64,000 nucleotides of DNA, taken from the NCBI GenBank assembly GCA_026989355.1, contig JALSJM010000002.1:372001-436000 (forward strand), read 5' to 3'. The translations under genes were made by a program, and so were the position numbers. The DNA comes from Paracoccaceae bacterium. Lineage in GTDB: Bacteria > Pseudomonadota > Alphaproteobacteria > Rhodobacterales > Rhodobacteraceae. Under the pieces are notes generated by a model. That model did no database searches. It had not been told where the DNA came from and worked only from the letters and a program-made list of their open reading frames with translations. Position 1 is the stretch's first letter, and every line of letters begins with the position of its first letter. This document shows, piece after piece, positions 38,012 to 63,157 of the stretch.

Positions 38012-38437
38012 TTACTCCTGGCGCAGAAGGTGTTCCAGGGCATCGCGAAAACATGTGGCATGCGGGCCGAGGATCCGCAGCACTTCCTGTTCGTAGGCCC
38101 GGGCCATCGGTGTGATTTTCGCCATCATGGCCTGGCCCTTTTCGGTCAGTGAAAGCTCTACAAGGCGTTTGTCCCCGGGGTTGGTTTTCTTGGTGATGTA
38201 TCCGGCCCGTTCAAGCCGGGCGGCGGCTCGGCTTACCTTTGATTTGTCCATGTCCACTTTTCTGTGGATTTCTCGCACGCTTACGGCCTCTTCCTGTGAA
38301 AGGTGGGCCACTACCCGCCATTCGGATACCGAGATTCCGAATTTCTGGTTATAAAGAGCCGAAAACTGACGACTCATCCGGTCTGCCAGAATGGCAAGCT
38401 GATAGGGCAGGAAGGTATCCAGTTCGAATTCAGGCAT
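38012..38437 (-). CDS. MarR-family regulator, probable repressor of the homogentisate genes
   Basis: The 141-residue protein starts MPEFELDTFLPYQLAILADR and has a MarR winged helix. The recognition region is SVREIHRKVDMDKSKVSRAA near residue 60 and the wing KKTNPGDKRLVELSLTEKG near 90. It is divergent from hmgA, whose promoter contains an ideal MarR-type dyad (38520-38533). An alternative ATG at 38518 would add 27 residues and start inside that operator; the family length favours 38437. GGAAGG ten bases upstream supports the choice modestly. The likely ligand is a pathway intermediate such as homogentisate; this is inference. Confidence 0.88.
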   Translation of the reverse strand: MPEFELDTFLPYQLAILADRMSRQFSALYNQKFGISVSEWRVVAHLSQEEAVSVREIHRKVDMDKSKVSRAAARLERAGYITKKTNPGDKRLVELSLTEKGQAMMAKITPMARAYEQEVLRILGPHATCFRDALEHLLRQE

Positions 38438-38493
38438 GACGACAAGACCTTCCGGGTTGGTGTTCTGCACAAAAGGCCACGGATTGGCAGATG

Positions 38494-38541
38494 TTGCAAG
38501 GGTGGTGCGGATTGACATCGTTGCAGTTGCAACGATATCGT
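38494..38541 (+). promoter_or_regulatory. hmgA promoter with MarR-type operator in the -35/-10 spacer
   Basis: TTGACA (38512-38517) and TATCGT (38536-38541) are 18 bases apart. The spacer holds almost all of the perfect dyad GTTGCA-GT-TGCAAC (38520-38533). A second TTGCAA half-palindrome lies at 38494-38499, and a further palindrome, ACGATATCGT, overlaps the -10 (38532-38541). A repressor bound here would block RNA polymerase directly. The same dyad is upstream of the divergent MarR gene, so autoregulation is likely. Confidence 0.65.
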
Positions 38542-38574
38542 GATCCCGCCGAGGGAGGATTCGGAGGAAATGCG

Positions 38575-39936
38575 ATGAACATCCAGGAATTACCGGAAAG
38601 AATGACCAAGGCACCAGGATATTGCGGCACGCATGAAGGATATATGCCTGGTTTCGGCAATGATTTCGAAACCGAAGCCCTGCCCGGCGCTCTGCCACAA
38701 GGACAGAACAGCCCGCAGCGGTGCAACTACGGTCTTTATGCCGAACAGCTTTCCGGCACAGCCTTTACCGCACCGCGTGGCCAGAACGAACGCACATGGT
38801 GCTATCGTATCCGGCCTTCGGTCAAGCACACGGGCCGGTTCAGGAAGATCGATCTTCCATACTGGAAATCGGCGCCGAATGTGCTGCCGGACGTGATCTC
38901 GCTCGGACAATACCGATGGGATCCGGTGCCCTACTCTGACGAACCGTTTACCTTTCTTACCGGCATGCGCACCATGACGACAGCAGGTGATGTGCATACG
39001 CAGGCGGGGATGGCCAGCCATATCTATCTGATCAATCAGAGCATGGAGGACGAGTATTTCTATTCGGCCGACAGCGAGCTTCTGATCGTGCCGCAGGAAG
39101 GGCGCCTGCGCTTTTATACCGAACTTGGCATCATCGATCTGGAGCCCAAGGAGATAGCGATCATCCCCCGTGGGCTTGTGTTCAGGGTTGCGCTTCTGGA
39201 AGGGCCTGCGCGCGGCTTCGTATGCGAAAACTACGGGCAGAAGTTTGATCTTCCCTCGCGCGGGCCGATCGGGGCCAACTGTCTGGCCAACCCGCGCGAT
39301 TTCAAATGCCCCGTGGCGGCTTTCGAGGATCGCGAGATGCCAAGCCGCGTGGTGGTGAAATGGGGTGGGCAGTTTCATGCCACCGAGATCGATCACAGCC
39401 CGCTTGATGTGGTGGCCTGGCATGGCAACTATGCCACCTACAAATACGATCTGCGCACCTATTCGCCGGTGGGTGCGATCCTGTTCGATCACCCCGATCC
39501 CTCGATCTTCACGGTTCTGACGGCCCCTTCAGGGGTGCCCGGCACGGCAAATATCGATTTCGTACTGTTTCGCGAGCGCTGGATGGTGGCCGAACACAGC
39601 TTTCGCCCGCCCTGGTATCACAAGAACATCATGTCGGAGCTGATGGGTAATATCTATGGGATCTACGATGCCAAGCCCAAGGGCTTTGTGCCCGGTGGGC
39701 TCAGCCTGCACAACATGATGATCCCGCATGGCCCCGACAAGAACGCCTTCGAGGCCGCAACCACTCAGGAACTGGTTCCCGAGAAGCTGGACAACACGAT
39801 GAGTTTCATGTTCGAAACCCGCTTTCCCCAGTACCTGACCGAATTCGCTGCAAGGGAGGCGCCACTCCAGGACGATTACATCGACTGCTGGAAGGATATC
39901 GAAAGGAAATTTGATGGCACGCCGGGAGAAAAATGA
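38575..39936 (+). CDS. hmgA: Homogentisate 1,2-dioxygenase
   Basis: The 453-residue protein begins [20 protein letters not shown] and contains the family blocks [19 protein letters not shown] near residue 23, [20 protein letters not shown] near 45 and PFGVF-equivalent cupin strands. The iron-site segment [20 protein letters not shown] is near 345 (His and Glu ligands), with [17 protein letters not shown] near 380. It opens the homogentisate ring to maleylacetoacetate. The start is fixed by GGAGGAAATGCG before the ATG; upstream in-frame codons would run into the promoter. It leads a plus-strand cluster that continues with fahA. Confidence 0.96.
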
Positions 39937-39943
39937 AACCTTG

Positions 39944-40020
39944 CACCACTAACGGGTGACTGTCCTCCGTGGTGAAGTAGTGGGCTTGCCGATATCCGAC
40001 TTGTGGCACAGTATTGCAAT
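39944..40020 (+). promoter_or_regulatory. Intercistronic region between hmgA and fahA with dyads and a TTGCAA palindrome
   Basis: The 218-bp gap contains two overlapping inverted repeats: CACCAC (39944-39949) with GTGGTG (39969-39974), and CCACTA (39946-39951) with TAGTGG (39978-39983). These could fold into a 5'-UTR hairpin. Further on is ATTGCAAT (40013-40020), which contains the same TTGCAA core found twice at the hmgA promoter. It may be a secondary operator for the same MarR protein. No strong -35/-10 pair was found here. Confidence 0.35.
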
Positions 40021-40154
40021 GCGCGGCGTTTCGGCTTGATCCCGCACTCTTCCGCCGCTCCATCGGAACCCTGCAATGTTGCCGCGTGTTCGGGCTCTGG
40101 TGCGCGACAGTTTCTGAAAACCGGCCCGTTGTGGCCTCAGTTCGAACGAATGCC

Positions 40155-41414
40155 ATGCCATTGATGAAGTCCTGGATCGAAAGTGCCAATCGCGAAGAGA
40201 CGGATTTTCCGCTCAACAATCTGCCCTATGGCGTTTTTTCGGCAAGGGGTGGGGCTGCGCATTGCGGAGTGGCTATCGGAGATTGCATCCTTGATCTGAC
40301 AGCGCTGGAGGCCGACAACAACCTTGGTCTGTTCGACAGGCGTGTTTTTGGTGCCCCGGCCTGGAATGATTTCATGGCGCTCGGGCCCGAGGCCTGGAAG
40401 CGTCTGCGCATCTGGTTGATTGGCGCACTTGGGGAAGACTCGCCCGTTCAGGCGATGGCGGAAACCTATCTGGTTGATCGTCTTTCGGCCACCATGCATC
40501 TGCCTTTCCGGGTGGCGGAGTTTACCGACTTCTATGCCGGCAAGCATCATGCCACCAATGTGGGCACCATGTTTCGCGGGCCCGGGAATGCCCTGCCGCC
40601 CAACTGGCTTCACATCCCGATCGGCTATAACGGGCGCGCCTCCTCGGTGGTGGTTTCGGATACGGATTTTCACCGTCCCTGGGGGCAGATCAAGAAACCG
40701 GATGCACCGATGCCGGAGTTTGCGCCAACCCGACGCTTCGATTTCGAACTTGAGATCGGAGTGATCGTGGGGCAGCCGTCCGAAGGGCCGGTGAGTGTGG
40801 TGCGGGCCGATGAGATGATTTTTGGCTACGTGTTGCTCAATGACTGGTCGGCCCGTGACATTCAGGTCTGGGAATATCAGCCTCTGGGCCCTTTTCAGGC
40901 CAAGGCCTCGGCAACAACGATCAGCCCATGGATCGTGACCAGGGCAGCGTTAGAGCCTTTTCGCGTTCCGACACCTGCGCGCGAAGTGCCGTTGCTGCCC
41001 TATCTCGAAGAGCCGGGTCCGATGCTTCATGATATTGACCTGGAAGTTGCGTTTGCCACCGCCAGTCGGGCAGAAACCATCATCGCGCGCACCAACATGC
41101 GCGAACTCTATTACTCTCCCGCTCAGCTGCTTGCCCATCACACCACCTCGGGCTGCCCGATGCGGGTGGGGGATCTGCTGGGCACCGGAACGATCTCGGG
41201 CGCCGGAAAGGAAAATCGCGGATCGCTGCTCGAACTGTCCTGGGGCGGCAGGGAACCGCTTGAGCTTGAAGGGGGCATACAGCGCAGTTTCATCGAGGAT
41301 GGCGATACCATTACCTTGCGTGGGATGGCCTGTGGCGCGGGCTACAGGATCGGTTTCGGCGAATGCCGCGGAACGGTTTTGCCGGCGCTCGAATATCCTG
41401 ACGCCGGCGGCTGA
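40155..41414 (+). CDS. fahA: Fumarylacetoacetase
   Basis: The 419-residue protein contains the FAH N-terminal domain (FPLNNLPYGVFSARGG near residue 17). The catalytic FAH fold follows with FTDFYAGKHHATNVGTMFRG near 118, FDFELEIGVIVGQPSEG near 195, LLNDWSARDIQVWEYQPLGPF near 230 and SCPMRVGDLLGTGTISG-like TSGCPMRVGDLLGTGTISG near 335. It hydrolyses fumarylacetoacetate to fumarate and acetoacetate. The start is uncertain: ATGs at 40155 and 40164 are both plausible and neither has a clear Shine-Dalgarno. The enzyme directly upstream of it in the pathway, maleylacetoacetate isomerase, is not encoded in this window. Confidence 0.94.
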   Translation: MPLMKSWIESANREETDFPLNNLPYGVFSARGGAAHCGVAIGDCILDLTALEADNNLGLFDRRVFGAPAWNDFMALGPEAWKRLRIWLIGALGEDSPVQAMAETYLVDRLSATMHLPFRVAEFTDFYAGKHHATNVGTMFRGPGNALPPNWLHIPIGYNGRASSVVVSDTDFHRPWGQIKKPDAPMPEFAPTRRFDFELEIGVIVGQPSEGPVSVVRADEMIFGYVLLNDWSARDIQVWEYQPLGPFQAKASATTISPWIVTRAALEPFRVPTPAREVPLLPYLEEPGPMLHDIDLEVAFATASRAETIIARTNMRELYYSPAQLLAHHTTSGCPMRVGDLLGTGTISGAGKENRGSLLELSWGGREPLELEGGIQRSFIEDGDTITLRGMACGAGYRIGFGECRGTVLPALEYPDAGG

Positions 41415-41475
41415 CCCGCGATGATACGGGGTATCCCCGGATGCCTTTCAAGGCAGGAACAGAGAAGGAAATGAC

Positions 41476-42426
41476 ATGAGCAAGGCTTTCGCGTCACAAG
41501 GTGACCTGGAAGAAAAGAAAACGAGCTTCACAGAGATCGGTTCCGGTCTCTGGGCCTTTACCGCCGAAGGTGATCCGAATTCGGGCGTCATCATCGGGGA
41601 TGACAGTGTCATGGTGATCGAGGCCCAGGCCACGCCGCGTCTGGCGCAGAAAGTGATCGCTGAGATCCGCAAGGTGACAGACAAGCCGATCACCCACCTT
41701 GTGCTGACCCATTACCATGCCGTGCGGGTGCTGGGGGCTTCGGCCTATGGCGTGGATCAGATCATAATGGGCGAGAAGGCACGCGCCATGGTGGCCGAGC
41801 GCGGCAAGGAAGACTGGGAAAGCGAATTTCAGAGGTTCCCCCGCCTCTTCCAGGGTCATGAAAGTATTCCCGGCCTTACATGGCCTACCGTTACCTTCAA
41901 TGACAGGATGAGTGTCTATCTTGGCGAAAGGCGCATCGATCTGATGCACCTTGGCCGTGCGCATACGGCAGGTGATATCGTGATCCATGTGCCCGATGCC
42001 AATGTGATGTTTACCGGTGACATCGTTGAATATCATTCGGCCTGTTATTGTGGCGATGGCCATTTCAACGACTGGCCCGCCACGCTTGACGCCATCCGCG
42101 ATTTTGATCTTGATGCCATCGCCCCGGGGCGTGGTGATGCTCTGATCGGGCGCGAGATGGTGAACAAGGCCCTGGACTGCACCGAAGATTTCATCCGCTC
42201 CACCTATCGCCCTGCTGCCCGCGTGGCCCAGCGGGGCGGCAGCCTGAAAGAGGCCTGGGATGCGGTCCGTGCCGAATGTGATCCGAAATTCAGCGATTAC
42301 GCGATCTACGAACATTGCCTGCCCTTCAACGTGGCGCGCGCCCATGACGAAGCCCGGGGCATCGATACCCCCCGTATCTGGACTGCCGAGCGTGATATAG
42401 AAATGTGGGAGGCCCTGCAGGGCTGA
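41476..42426 (+). CDS. Metallo-beta-lactamase-fold protein with a rewritten metal site
   Basis: The 316-residue protein has the MBL fold. An N-terminal strand pair carries NSGVIIGDDSVMVIEAQATP. The metal motif reads THYHAVRVLG where canonical enzymes have THxHxDHxGG, so the usual Asp and His are Val and Arg. The third ligand region is kept (LGRAHTAGD), as is FTGDIVEY, but the last His is Arg (APGRGD). It may bind a single metal or none, or use a different chemistry. About 60 bp separates it from fahA and 23 bp from the flavin monooxygenase, so it belongs to the aromatic cluster. Hydrolase, isomerase and binding roles remain open. Confidence 0.8.
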   Translation: MSKAFASQGDLEEKKTSFTEIGSGLWAFTAEGDPNSGVIIGDDSVMVIEAQATPRLAQKVIAEIRKVTDKPITHLVLTHYHAVRVLGASAYGVDQIIMGEKARAMVAERGKEDWESEFQRFPRLFQGHESIPGLTWPTVTFNDRMSVYLGERRIDLMHLGRAHTAGDIVIHVPDANVMFTGDIVEYHSACYCGDGHFNDWPATLDAIRDFDLDAIAPGRGDALIGREMVNKALDCTEDFIRSTYRPAARVAQRGGSLKEAWDAVRAECDPKFSDYAIYEHCLPFNVARAHDEARGIDTPRIWTAERDIEMWEALQG

Positions 42427-42449
42427 ATCCTGAACACGGAAAACGCACC

Positions 42450-44063
42450 ATGGCACGGAAGATATTCGAAATTCCGCTATATCCTTACAGGCGTCATCCG
42501 GATCAGGATGAATCCACTCCGGTGCGTCATCCGGTAATCGTGATCGGTGCCGGACCGGTGGGGCTGGCGGCGGCGATCGACCTTGGCCAGCAGGGTGTGC
42601 CGGTTGTCGTACTGGACGACAATGACAAGGTTTCCTTCGGGTCGCGTGCGATCTGCTTTTCCAAGCGCACGCTCGAGATTTTCAACCGGCTCGGGTGTGC
42701 CTCAGAAATGGCTCGCAAAGGTGTTCAATGGGATACCGGCAGGGTGTTCTTCCGCGATCGCGAAATATATGCCTTCAGGCTGCTCGAAGAAACCGGGCAC
42801 AAGTTTCCCGCTTTCATCAACCTGCAACAGTATTACCTTGAGGAATATCTGGTAAAGCGCCTGCGGGCGCTGCAGGAAGAAGGCAGGCCCATCGATCTGC
42901 GCGGACGGAACAAGGTTGAGGCCATAGGCCAGCATGATGATCATGTGACCCTTGAAATCGCCACTCCCGACGGCCCCTACAATCTTGAGGCCGAGTGGAT
43001 CATCGCCTGTGATGGCGCCGCTTCGCCAACCCGCCGGATGCTCGGCATGGATTTCGTCGGGCAGGTATTTGCGGACAATTTCCTGATTGCCGATGTGGTG
43101 ATGCAGGCCGGATTTCCTTCCGAGCGCTGGTTCTGGTTCGATCCGCCTTTCAACAGAGGCCAGTCGGCATTGTTGCACAAGCAGCCCGACAATCTGTGGC
43201 GTATCGATTTCCAGCTAGGCTGGGATATCGACAGGGAAGAGGAGCAGAAGCCCGAAAAGGTGATCCGTCGTCTGCGTGCCATGCTGGGGGAGCATACAAA
43301 ATTCGAGCTGGAATGGGTGTCGATCTACACTTTCCAGTGCCGGCGGATGGAGCATTTCCGCCATGGTCGTGTGCTGTTTGCAGGGGATGCGGCGCATCAG
43401 GTTTCTCCTTTCGGCGCGCGCGGGGCGAATTCCGGTTTTCAGGATATCGATAATCTCGTGTGGAAGCTGAAGCTGGTGCTCGGGGGCAAGGCACCCGAAA
43501 CGCTGCTTGACAGCTATGACCACGAACGTGTGATGGCGGCCGATGAAAACATTCTGAATTCGACCCGCTCGACCGAATTCATTACCCCGAAAACCGAGAC
43601 CAGCCGCATCTTCCGCGATGCGGTTCTGGATCTGGCCGAAAGGCATGTCCCGGTCCGTCCGATGATCAATACCGGCCGGCTGTCGGTGCCGGCAATCTAT
43701 GATGGCTCGCCCCTGAACGGCCCCGACTCGAACGTATTGCCCGAAAGTCTGCGCCCTGGCGCCCCGGCAGTGGATGCACCACTTTCCGAAGGCTGGTTGC
43801 TTGATCGTCTCGGCAATGGCTTTCAGCTGCTGCTGATAGATACAGAGGCTGTTCCGGAAAAGGATCTTTCGGGGCTGGGAATCGAACCTGTCGCGCTTTC
43901 AGCCGACGAGAGCCCGGAATTTGCGGAACGCTACCTTGGCGAGGCCGGGCAAGCCGTTTACCTGCTTCGCCCCGATCAGCATGTGGCTGCTCGCTGGACC
44001 GTCTATGAGCCGGAAGCCGTTATCGCGGCATTCCGGCGTGCAACCGCACGAGAGGAGGCATGA
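42450..44063 (+). CDS. FAD-dependent aromatic monooxygenase, MhpA/MhaA-like
   Basis: The 537-residue protein starts MARKIFEIPLYPYRR and shows a group A flavin hydroxylase layout. FAD-binding VIVIGAGPVGLAAAIDLG lies near residue 30, the DG motif ACDGAASPTRRMLGMDF near 185, and the GD motif VLFAGDAAHQVSPFGARGAN near 305. A C-terminal thioredoxin-like domain is probable (about 420-537). It would hydroxylate a phenolic ring with NAD(P)H and oxygen. In this homogentisate cluster, and directly followed by a 64-residue DUF2783 protein, it resembles the large component of 3-hydroxyphenylacetate 6-hydroxylase, which makes homogentisate. That substrate is inferred, not shown. Confidence 0.82.
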   Translation: MARKIFEIPLYPYRRHPDQDESTPVRHPVIVIGAGPVGLAAAIDLGQQGVPVVVLDDNDKVSFGSRAICFSKRTLEIFNRLGCASEMARKGVQWDTGRVFFRDREIYAFRLLEETGHKFPAFINLQQYYLEEYLVKRLRALQEEGRPIDLRGRNKVEAIGQHDDHVTLEIATPDGPYNLEAEWIIACDGAASPTRRMLGMDFVGQVFADNFLIADVVMQAGFPSERWFWFDPPFNRGQSALLHKQPDNLWRIDFQLGWDIDREEEQKPEKVIRRLRAMLGEHTKFELEWVSIYTFQCRRMEHFRHGRVLFAGDAAHQVSPFGARGANSGFQDIDNLVWKLKLVLGGKAPETLLDSYDHERVMAADENILNSTRSTEFITPKTETSRIFRDAVLDLAERHVPVRPMINTGRLSVPAIYDGSPLNGPDSNVLPESLRPGAPAVDAPLSEGWLLDRLGNGFQLLLIDTEAVPEKDLSGLGIEPVALSADESPEFAERYLGEAGQAVYLLRPDQHVAARWTVYEPEAVIAAFRRATAREEA

Positions 44064-44064
44064 C

Positions 44065-44259
44065 ATGGCGAAACTGATCACCACCCCGAATATCGCTGAT
44101 GCCGATGCCTTCTATGCAGCGCTCATGGCCGCACATGAAGGGTGCAGCAAGGAGGAATCCGATGCGCTCAATGCCCGCCTCGTGCTGATCCTTGCCAATC
44201 ATGTCGGCGACATGAACATTCTGTTGCAGGCTCTGGAACTGGCCCGGCAGAAGGCGTGA
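44065..44259 (+). CDS. DUF2783 small protein, possible coupling subunit of the monooxygenase
   Basis: The 64-residue helical protein starts MAKLITTPNIADADAFYAAL and contains HEGCSKEESDALNARLVLIL and NHVGDMNILLQALELA. AGAGGAGG stands six bases before the ATG, and only one base separates it from the monooxygenase stop, so the two are translated together. DUF2783 proteins recur beside such flavoproteins. The known two-component 3-hydroxyphenylacetate hydroxylase also has a very small coupling protein (MhaB). Equating the two is my inference. A strong terminator follows. Confidence 0.85.
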   Translation: MAKLITTPNIADADAFYAALMAAHEGCSKEESDALNARLVLILANHVGDMNILLQALELARQKA

Positions 44260-61307: not shown

Positions 61308-63024
61308 GGCGTTCCTTCTTCGCACCCGGGTGGGTGACTGCGCCGTATCTGGTCGGGCCGACCGTCTGCGCATATTTCCAGATCGCACCAGAGGCATAGC
61401 CGGTTTTGCGGGGGCCCTTCCATTCGGCGCGGCGCCTTTCCAGTTCTTCGTCGGAAAGGTTTACCGAGATCACGCCCCTGATTGCATCAAGGGTGATCAT
61501 GTCGCCATCGCGGATCAGCGCGATCGGTCCGCCATGCGCCGCCTCGGGGCCGACGTGGCCCACGCAGAAGCCGCGGGTGGCACCCGAGAAACGGCCATCG
61601 GTAATAAGCGCCACCTTCTTGCCCATGCCCTGGCCCGAAAGGGCCGCAGTGGTGGCCAGCATTTCACGCATGCCGGGCCCGCCAGCCGGGCCTTCATTGC
61701 GGATCACGATCACTTCGCCTTCATTGTACTTCCGCTCCTGCACGGCTTCGAAGGCGTCTTCCTCGCATTCGAACACCCGTGCGGGCCCGGTGAATACCAG
61801 CTGGTCGTCGCTCATGCCGGCGATCTTCACAATGGCCCCGTCGGGGGCAAGGTTGCCTTTCAGGCCGACAACGCCACCGGTCTTGCTGATCGGGTTGGAA
61901 ACCGGGTGGATCACCCGGCCGTCGGCTTCGCGGGTCACGATATCGATTTCCTCGCCGATCGTGCGGCCGGTGACGGTCAGGCAATCGCGGTGGACAAGGC
62001 CGGCCCTGTCAAGCTCTTTCAGCACCACGGGCACGCCGCCTGCCTCGTAAAGATCCTTTGCCACATAGGCGCCTCCGGGCTTGAGATCGACGAAATAGGG
62101 CGTATCGCGGAAGATGTCGCAGACATCATCGAGATCGAAGTCAATCCCCGCCTCATGGGCGATTGCGGGCAGATGCAGCCCCGCGTTGGTAGATCCCCCG
62201 GTGCAGGCCACCACGCGGGCGGCGTTGATCAGGGCTTCGCGGGTCACGATATCGCGGGCGCGGATGTTCTTCTCGATCAGGCGCATCACCGCTTCTCCGG
62301 AAGCTTCGCAATACTGATCGCGGCTTTCGTAAGGGGCCGGTGCGCCTGAACTGTTGGGCAGGGCAAGGCCGATCGCCTCGCTCACGCAAGCCATGGTATT
62401 GGCAGTGAACTGGCCGCCGCAGGCTCCGGCCGAGGGGCAGGCCACGGCCTCCAGCTTCTCGAGTTCGCAGGTGGATATCTCGCCTGCCTGATGTCGGCCC
62501 ACGGCCTCGAACACGTCCTGCACCGTCACATCCTTGCCATCAAGGCGCCCCGGCAGGATCGATCCGCCATAGATGAACACGCTGGGTACGTTCAGCCGCA
62601 CCATCGCCATCATCATGCCGGGAAGCGACTTGTCACATCCTGCAAGGCCCACCAGCGCATCATAGCAATGACCACGCATGGTCAGTTCCACACTGTCGGC
62701 GATCACTTCGCGGCTGACGAGCGATGAGCGCATCCCCTCATGCCCCATGGCGATACCGTCGGTAACGGTGATGGTGGTGAATTCCCGCGGCGTTCCCCTG
62801 GCTGCCGTTACCCCCATCTTCACGGCCTGGGCCTGGCGGTTGAGTGCAATGTTGCAGGGCGCGGCTTCGTTCCAGCATGTGGCCACGCCGACAAACGGCT
62901 GATGGATCTCGTCTTCACTGATCCCCATGGCATAAAGATAGGAGCGGTGCGGGGCACGCTCGGGGCCTTCTGTCACATGGCGGCTCGGCAAACGGGACTT
63001 GTCGTAGCGGGTGTTCTTCTTCAT
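61288..63024 (-). CDS. ilvD: Dihydroxy-acid dehydratase
   Basis: The 578-residue enzyme starts [20 protein letters not shown] and contains the iron-sulfur ligands in [11 protein letters not shown] near residue 50, [16 protein letters not shown] near 124 and [17 protein letters not shown] near 195. It also has the carbamylated-Lys/Mg region [13 protein letters not shown] and the C-terminal signature [22 protein letters not shown] near 480. It makes 2-keto acids for branched-chain amino acids and pantothenate. The three cysteines (CNxxPC-like, GCDK, ACGG) fit the 2Fe-2S or 4Fe-4S family. It is divergent from the CPBP gene. Confidence 0.96.
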
Positions 63025-63157
63025 CGTGGCCTCTCATTTCCAGCGGTCGGTTTTTGAATAGGCGAGGCCCGCGCGATCCACAAGCGCGATTGCGCAGGCA
63101 GGCCATCGCGTATAGGGTGCCGCGAGCGCAGGCCGGCAGTCAGGCAGACAGACAAGG

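Follow-up and report, generated by a model that had tools for sequence, protein, structure and literature searches.

In Pseudomonas putida U, the 3-hydroxyphenylacetate 6-hydroxylase has been described as a two-component enzyme, MhaAB, and in the published layout the large hydroxylase and its small protein adjoin hmgA (PMC3053370). The association of MhaAB with hmgABC is also known from P. xenovorans LB400, again with an MhaA-like flavoprotein and a protein of 60-65 amino acids beside hmgA (PMC3053370). No mention of a metallo-beta-lactamase-fold (MBL) protein was found in the LB400 literature searched, nor did the literature searched yield a functional study of the Burkholderia cenocepacia structure PDB 8D2Z, of DUF2783, or of an MBL protein beside homogentisate or mha genes. 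A described enzyme of the MBL fold with an aromatic-ring substrate is the chlorothalonil dehalogenase, which uses a mononuclear zinc site. Its catalytic zinc ligands are Asp116, His117, Asn216 and His257 (PMC12784990).

In a Paracoccaceae bacterium (assembly GCA_026989355.1), a single-copy MBL gene lies within an MhaAB-like gene set. The source genome is 2.59 Mb in size and 99.67% complete, and the window analysed here is a stretch of 64,000 nucleotides. The features concerned are as follows.

38012-38437 (likely start 38437), reverse strand: divergent MarR-family regulator, BilQ/HpaR-like, scoring below both cut-offs
38575-39936 (likely start; the ORF opens at 38491), forward strand: homogentisate 1,2-dioxygenase, hmgA (TIGR01015, 652 bits, over the cut-off)
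40155-41414 (likely start; the ORF opens at 40014), forward strand: fumarylacetoacetase, fahA (TIGR01266, 483.6 bits, over the cut-off)
41476-42426, forward strand: MBL-fold protein with rewritten Zn2 ligands (H79, H81, H163 and D182 kept; V83, R84 and R219 fixed)
41710-41727, forward strand: HYHAVR motif (residues 79-84) replacing HxHxDH
42130-42132, forward strand: codon of R219, replacing the last metal His (H263)
42450-44063, forward strand: FAD aromatic hydroxylase of the NF006002/PRK08132 family, MhaA-like (796.6 bits, cut-off 416)
44065-44259, forward strand: DUF2783 small protein of 65 amino acids, MhaB-like coupling component (PF10932, 95.3 bits)

The five genes hmgA, fahA, MBL, FAD hydroxylase and DUF2783 follow one another in this order on the same strand, with the MarR regulator divergent. 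The MBL ORF is intact and encodes 316 amino acids; the hydroxylase ATG lies 23 nt downstream of its stop, and the DUF2783 gene starts one base past the hydroxylase stop. The NF006002 score above the cut-off and the adjoining DUF2783 protein place the hydroxylase with MhaA, and the locus as a whole resembles the published MhaAB layout in having a large hydroxylase and a small protein beside hmgA (PMC3053370). By analogy, the hydroxylase would be the large component of a 3-hydroxyphenylacetate 6-hydroxylase, its substrate being assigned from this likeness. A sequence-only reading of this DNA had taken all the surrounding genes to be aromatic-catabolic. This holds for positions 38012-44259 (MarR, hmgA, fahA, MBL, hydroxylase and DUF2783) and for a thiolase gene, but not farther out, where a penicillin-binding-protein-like gene and apparent serine-biosynthesis genes were read from the ORFs.

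The assignment of the 41476-42426 product to the MBL fold is supported by a Pfam Lactamase_B match (PF00753, 49.1 bits, cut-off 22.7) and by an AlphaFold2 model with the alpha-beta-beta-alpha fold (pLDDT 87). The best Foldseek match was PDB 8D2Z from B. cenocepacia (TM 0.90, 52% identity), followed by many other MBLs. By sequence, 8D2Z aligned over residues 1-315 with an E-value of 2e-115, placing both proteins in one subfamily, and the HYHAVR, GHTxGD, SGD and PGRG motifs are common to the two. The genomic context of this structural deposit differs, however, as the closest locus in the annotated collection, from Burkholderia multivorans, is not beside a hydroxylase gene. Membership in named MBL families was not found: the subclass B1 profile NF033088 gave 60.1 bits against a cut-off of 200, and the top NCBIfam profile by score, TIGR04559 (quinoprotein relay system zinc metallohydrolase 2), gave 108.2 bits against a cut-off of 280. 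Unlike the protein studied here, TIGR04559 proteins contain HxHxDH and PGHG.

The active-site motifs are 78-THYHAVRVLG-87, 160-GRAHTAGD-167, 179-FTGD-182 and 216-APGRGD-221. All of them had been pointed out beforehand, with THYHAVRVLG standing in place of THxHxDHxGG, the last metal His changed to Arg, and GRAHTAGD and FTGD retained, and this description was confirmed. Alignment to solved MBLs gave the equivalents in BBL numbering. Here H79, H81 and H163 correspond to H116, H118 and H196, leaving the three-His Zn1 site intact, while V83 corresponds to D120, D182 to position 221 and R219 to H263. Only the Asp (D182) thus remains of the Zn2 site, and the true losses are D120V and H263R. The earlier count of rewritten ligands stands for V83 and R219, but not for R84, which aligns to position 121, where B1 lactamases such as BcII have Arg as well. 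The likeness to these lactamases extends to the core fold and the three-His Zn1 site; the differences are the replacement of Asp120 by Val and of His263 by Arg, an Asp at position 221, additional helices at the C-terminus and location in a catabolic operon. With HYHAVR and PGRG, the two-metal ligand set of HxHxDH plus a distal His is absent and its three-His half is kept, so that the normal two-metal site can be ruled out, as had been proposed. Most likely, judging from the aligned residues, the protein binds a single metal ion at H79, H81 and H163. A one-metal enzyme had been offered alongside other chemistry on a pathway intermediate and a sensor, and is the best reading of these options, since the family as a whole conserves D182 and the three histidines of the Zn1 site.

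The rewritten site is not peculiar to this genome. H79, H81, V83, R84, H163, D182 and R219 show no variation across 81 loci, and the same residues are kept in homologues of 41-61% identity from Bosea, Roseomonas, Sphingobium, Paracoccus, Burkholderia, Variovorax and Rhodococcus, as well as in those from Nonomuraea and Halomonas. The pattern therefore spans alpha-, beta- and gammaproteobacteria and actinobacteria, down to approximately 41% identity, and the proposed check on conservation of the Val and the two Arg residues had a positive outcome. Canonical ligands were sought in close homologues and were not found there. A sequencing error or a single-genome substitution is ruled out by the 81 invariant loci, the homologues at approximately 41% identity and PDB 8D2Z. 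In the same alignment, remoter MBLs are canonical, with HxHxDH and PGHG. As the residues are fixed across the subfamily while more distant MBLs are canonical, the rewriting of the ligands is old and under selection within its own subfamily.

After 8D2Z, the next structural match was the chlorothalonil dehalogenase 6UXU (TM 0.71/0.74, 22% identity), with an alignment spanning essentially the full length, including the C-terminal helical part. This likeness raises the reading that the MBL protein would, in the manner of the dehalogenase, hydrolytically remove a ring substituent, here from phenylacetates, and so yield the phenol for the hydroxylase. The identity is only 22%, however, and the dehalogenase uses Zn2-type residues: its Asp-His pair and distal His correspond to V83-R84 and R219 in the MBL family, where these ligands are thus largely Val or Arg. 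Its zinc-ligand set was not found in our protein by motif comparison. We regard this reading as very improbable.

The kept residues also bear on a second kind of one-metal chemistry, in which the protein would be a mononuclear Fe(II) enzyme acting on an intermediate of the pathway, either as an oxygenase or in quinone handling. The equivalents of H116, H196 and D221 include positions that we take to be the facial triad holding the iron of the MBL-fold persulfide dioxygenase ETHE1, and the gene is almost always tied to an O2-using hydroxylase. ETHE1 itself, however, retains the HxHxDH motif that this family has lost. Nothing indicated directly that iron or oxygen is used, and the profile and PDB searches point instead to B1/B2 lactamases and the zinc-dependent chlorothalonil dehalogenase. 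An iron enzyme is therefore decidedly doubtful.

Co-occurrence was determined in an order sample of 197 Rhodobacterales genomes and a phylum sample of 180 proteobacterial genomes. In the order sample, the MBL gene was present in 127 genomes and the hydroxylase in 129; both were found in 127, the MBL alone in none and the hydroxylase alone in two (phi 0.98). In one of the latter (G363), the hydroxylase lies at the contig start and the MBL gene may be off the contig. The corresponding phi values were 0.73 for hmgA, 0.62 for paaA and 0.54 for maiA. In the phylum sample, the MBL was found in 19 genomes and the hydroxylase in 18, all 18 of which contain the MBL, whereas the MBL is present in only 15 of the 36 genomes with hmgA. 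Co-occurrence with hmgA and fahA had been the expectation, but it is the hydroxylase that proved to be the tight partner. Of 80 related loci, 79 have the hydroxylase gene no more than 1.3 kb from the MBL gene and in the same orientation, the median gap being 80 nt; in these 80 loci, a DUF2783 gene is present in 75, HmgA in 54 and FahA in 48. Seven genomes of the order sample (G195, G198, G211, G282, G308, G327 and G362) keep both genes although these lie on separate contigs or, where they share a contig, more than 0.6 Mb from each other, and linkage alone is thus insufficient to explain the co-occurrence. The MBL protein is a near-obligate companion of an MhaA/MhaB-like flavin hydroxylase. A sensor role, which had also been suggested, is disfavoured by the position of the gene within the catabolic operon and by the separate MarR- or IclR-type regulator nearby, here and in many clusters.

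Such a tie is close to what would be expected of a subunit. The MBL protein might be a non-catalytic accessory, acting as a chaperone, a scaffold or a third MhaA/MhaB subunit, with the His and Asp residues holding a structural metal. The 23-nt gap in the window fits this reading, and a hydroxylase of this type already needs a small coupling protein (PMC3053370). It also fits that G139, the sole MBL genome in the phylum sample without the hydroxylase (E<=1e-100), encodes an MBL in which HYHAVR has become NYHALR and GDxV has become GALV. Such decay of the site would be expected after loss of the partner, although this is a single case. On the other hand, a scaffold would not need three His and one Asp placed as in a catalytic site, yet all four are kept to 41% identity, and standalone copies in Burkholderia and elsewhere retain the full motif. 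The hydroxylases also vary in sequence (47-78% identity to that of the window) next to conserved MBLs (76-94%), the MBL range being biased by selection of loci on MBL identity. An accessory role is thus unlikely. Distance matrices of the MBL correlated at 0.78-0.82 with those of HmgA/FahA and at 0.57 with that of MhaA, and do not favour one-to-one co-evolution of MBL and hydroxylase; little weight is given to them, the loci having been chosen by MBL identity.

Several links to neighbouring pathways were considered and either rejected or weakened. The source genome contains hmgA and fahA and no maleylacetoacetate isomerase gene over the cut-off (TIGR01262 best at 56.6 bits, cut-off 171), a gap shared by 38 of the 150 hmgA genomes of the order sample. 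With fahA adjoining the MBL gene, the MBL might be a non-orthologous replacement of maiA. Co-occurrence contradicts this: rather than being mutually exclusive with the MBL, maiA is present in 99 of 126 hmgA genomes with the MBL and in 13 of the 24 that lack the MBL, contrary to what replacement would give, and it occurs in 17 of the 19 MBL genomes of the phylum sample, often beside the MBL cluster. Replacement is extremely improbable. A strict role in homogentisate cleavage is unlikely because hmgA often occurs without the MBL (24 of 150 hmgA genomes), and no HmgA homologue is nearby in 25 of 80 loci, some of which are on short contigs. A role in salvaging 2-hydroxyphenylacetyl-CoA, or the lactone of this compound, from the phenylacetate pathway is weakened by the moderate phi with paaA noted above and by the lack of paaA in 26 of 127 MBL genomes; it is retained as a sub-option. 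The hydroxylation of 2-hydroxyphenylacetate by the P450 OhpA in Cupriavidus also counts against it (PMC8449657).

Other features were noted at the related loci. One genome, which has no canonical hmgA, encodes a divergent HmgA homologue (L116:13923-15074, reverse strand) of approximately 25% identity, scoring 85 bits with TIGR01015, in the company of the MBL, the hydroxylase and a maiA-like gene; a 'cupin' protein in a Rhodococcus plasmid cluster (L110) is similar to it. This type of homologue is possibly a different ring-cleaving dioxygenase. A VOC-family protein of about 180 amino acids is found beside the MBL and hydroxylase at L031:13779-14324 (forward strand), other Ruegeria loci, L107, L106 and L111. 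It is present in several loci without HmgA nearby and may be an alternative ring-cleavage enzyme. In L106 (Acidovorax sp. T1, IncP plasmid), a TAG interrupts the hydroxylase frame (record 62254-63036), whereas the adjoining genes for the MBL and the VOC protein have remained intact. In 10 loci, including L023:5793-6695 (forward strand), hmgA has beside it a gene for another MBL-fold protein, distinct from the first (Lactamase_B_2). The Variovorax record L113 contains two MBLs of the family within 9 kb (L113:8866-9951 and L113:16976-17935), one paired with the hydroxylase and the other beside ABC-transporter genes.

Other genomic contexts also bear on the role of the MBL protein. In Dinoroseobacter shibae, the MBL-hydroxylase-DUF2783 set runs directly into the phenylacetate paa genes, and in B. 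multivorans a lone MBL gene is flanked by those of an IclR regulator and an HpaX-like transporter/permease; both contexts are consistent with a peripheral aromatic-acid step. We propose, with moderate confidence, that the protein represents a distinct, uncharacterised MBL subfamily of one-metal enzymes with Arg in place of the second metal, probably acting as a hydrolase near the conversion of 3-hydroxyphenylacetate to homogentisate. One metal would be bound in the three-His Zn1 site with D182 near it, and would activate water so that the metal-bound hydroxide attacks the substrate. R219 would replace the second metal and, together with R84, hold a carboxylate, which fits aryl-acetate substrates. 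The reaction, chosen by analogy with the superfamily, would most likely be the opening of a hydroxyphenylacetate ester, lactone or thioester in the step that immediately precedes or follows the hydroxylase, which would itself convert 3-hydroxyphenylacetate or a close relative to homogentisate as a peripheral step. The MBL would thereby supply the hydroxylase or clear a by-product. Since the P. putida U enzyme is described as two-component MhaAB, the MBL may be dispensable for hydroxylation itself. Against this proposal, some MBLs stand alone, as in B. multivorans and in Actibacterium (L051), where the hydroxylase is elsewhere in the genome. In a more far-reaching reading, an arginine has permanently replaced the second metal of a widespread MBL-fold enzyme whose reaction is without precedent in the fold, perhaps requiring Fe(II) or acting on a hydroquinone or quinone intermediate, and the protein would be an overlooked third component of bacterial 3-hydroxyphenylacetate hydroxylation; this is quite unlikely.

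Of the Rhodobacterales genomes sampled, about two thirds (127 of 197) contain the MBL gene, as do members of other proteobacterial and actinobacterial groups, mostly in aromatic-catabolic operons. It is annotated merely as 'MBL fold metallo-hydrolase' and was not mentioned in the pathway literature searched. Its products form a sizeable, conserved family of known fold and solved structure. The near-absolute tie to the hydroxylase means that, in these bacteria, the textbook two-protein MhaAB step may lack a component or an intermediate. In addition, the fixed Val, Arg and Arg residues are a natural experiment on how an MBL site can be run with an arginine and a single metal, which bears on the use of the second zinc by metallo-beta-lactamases, and the crystal structure 8D2Z is an existing starting point.
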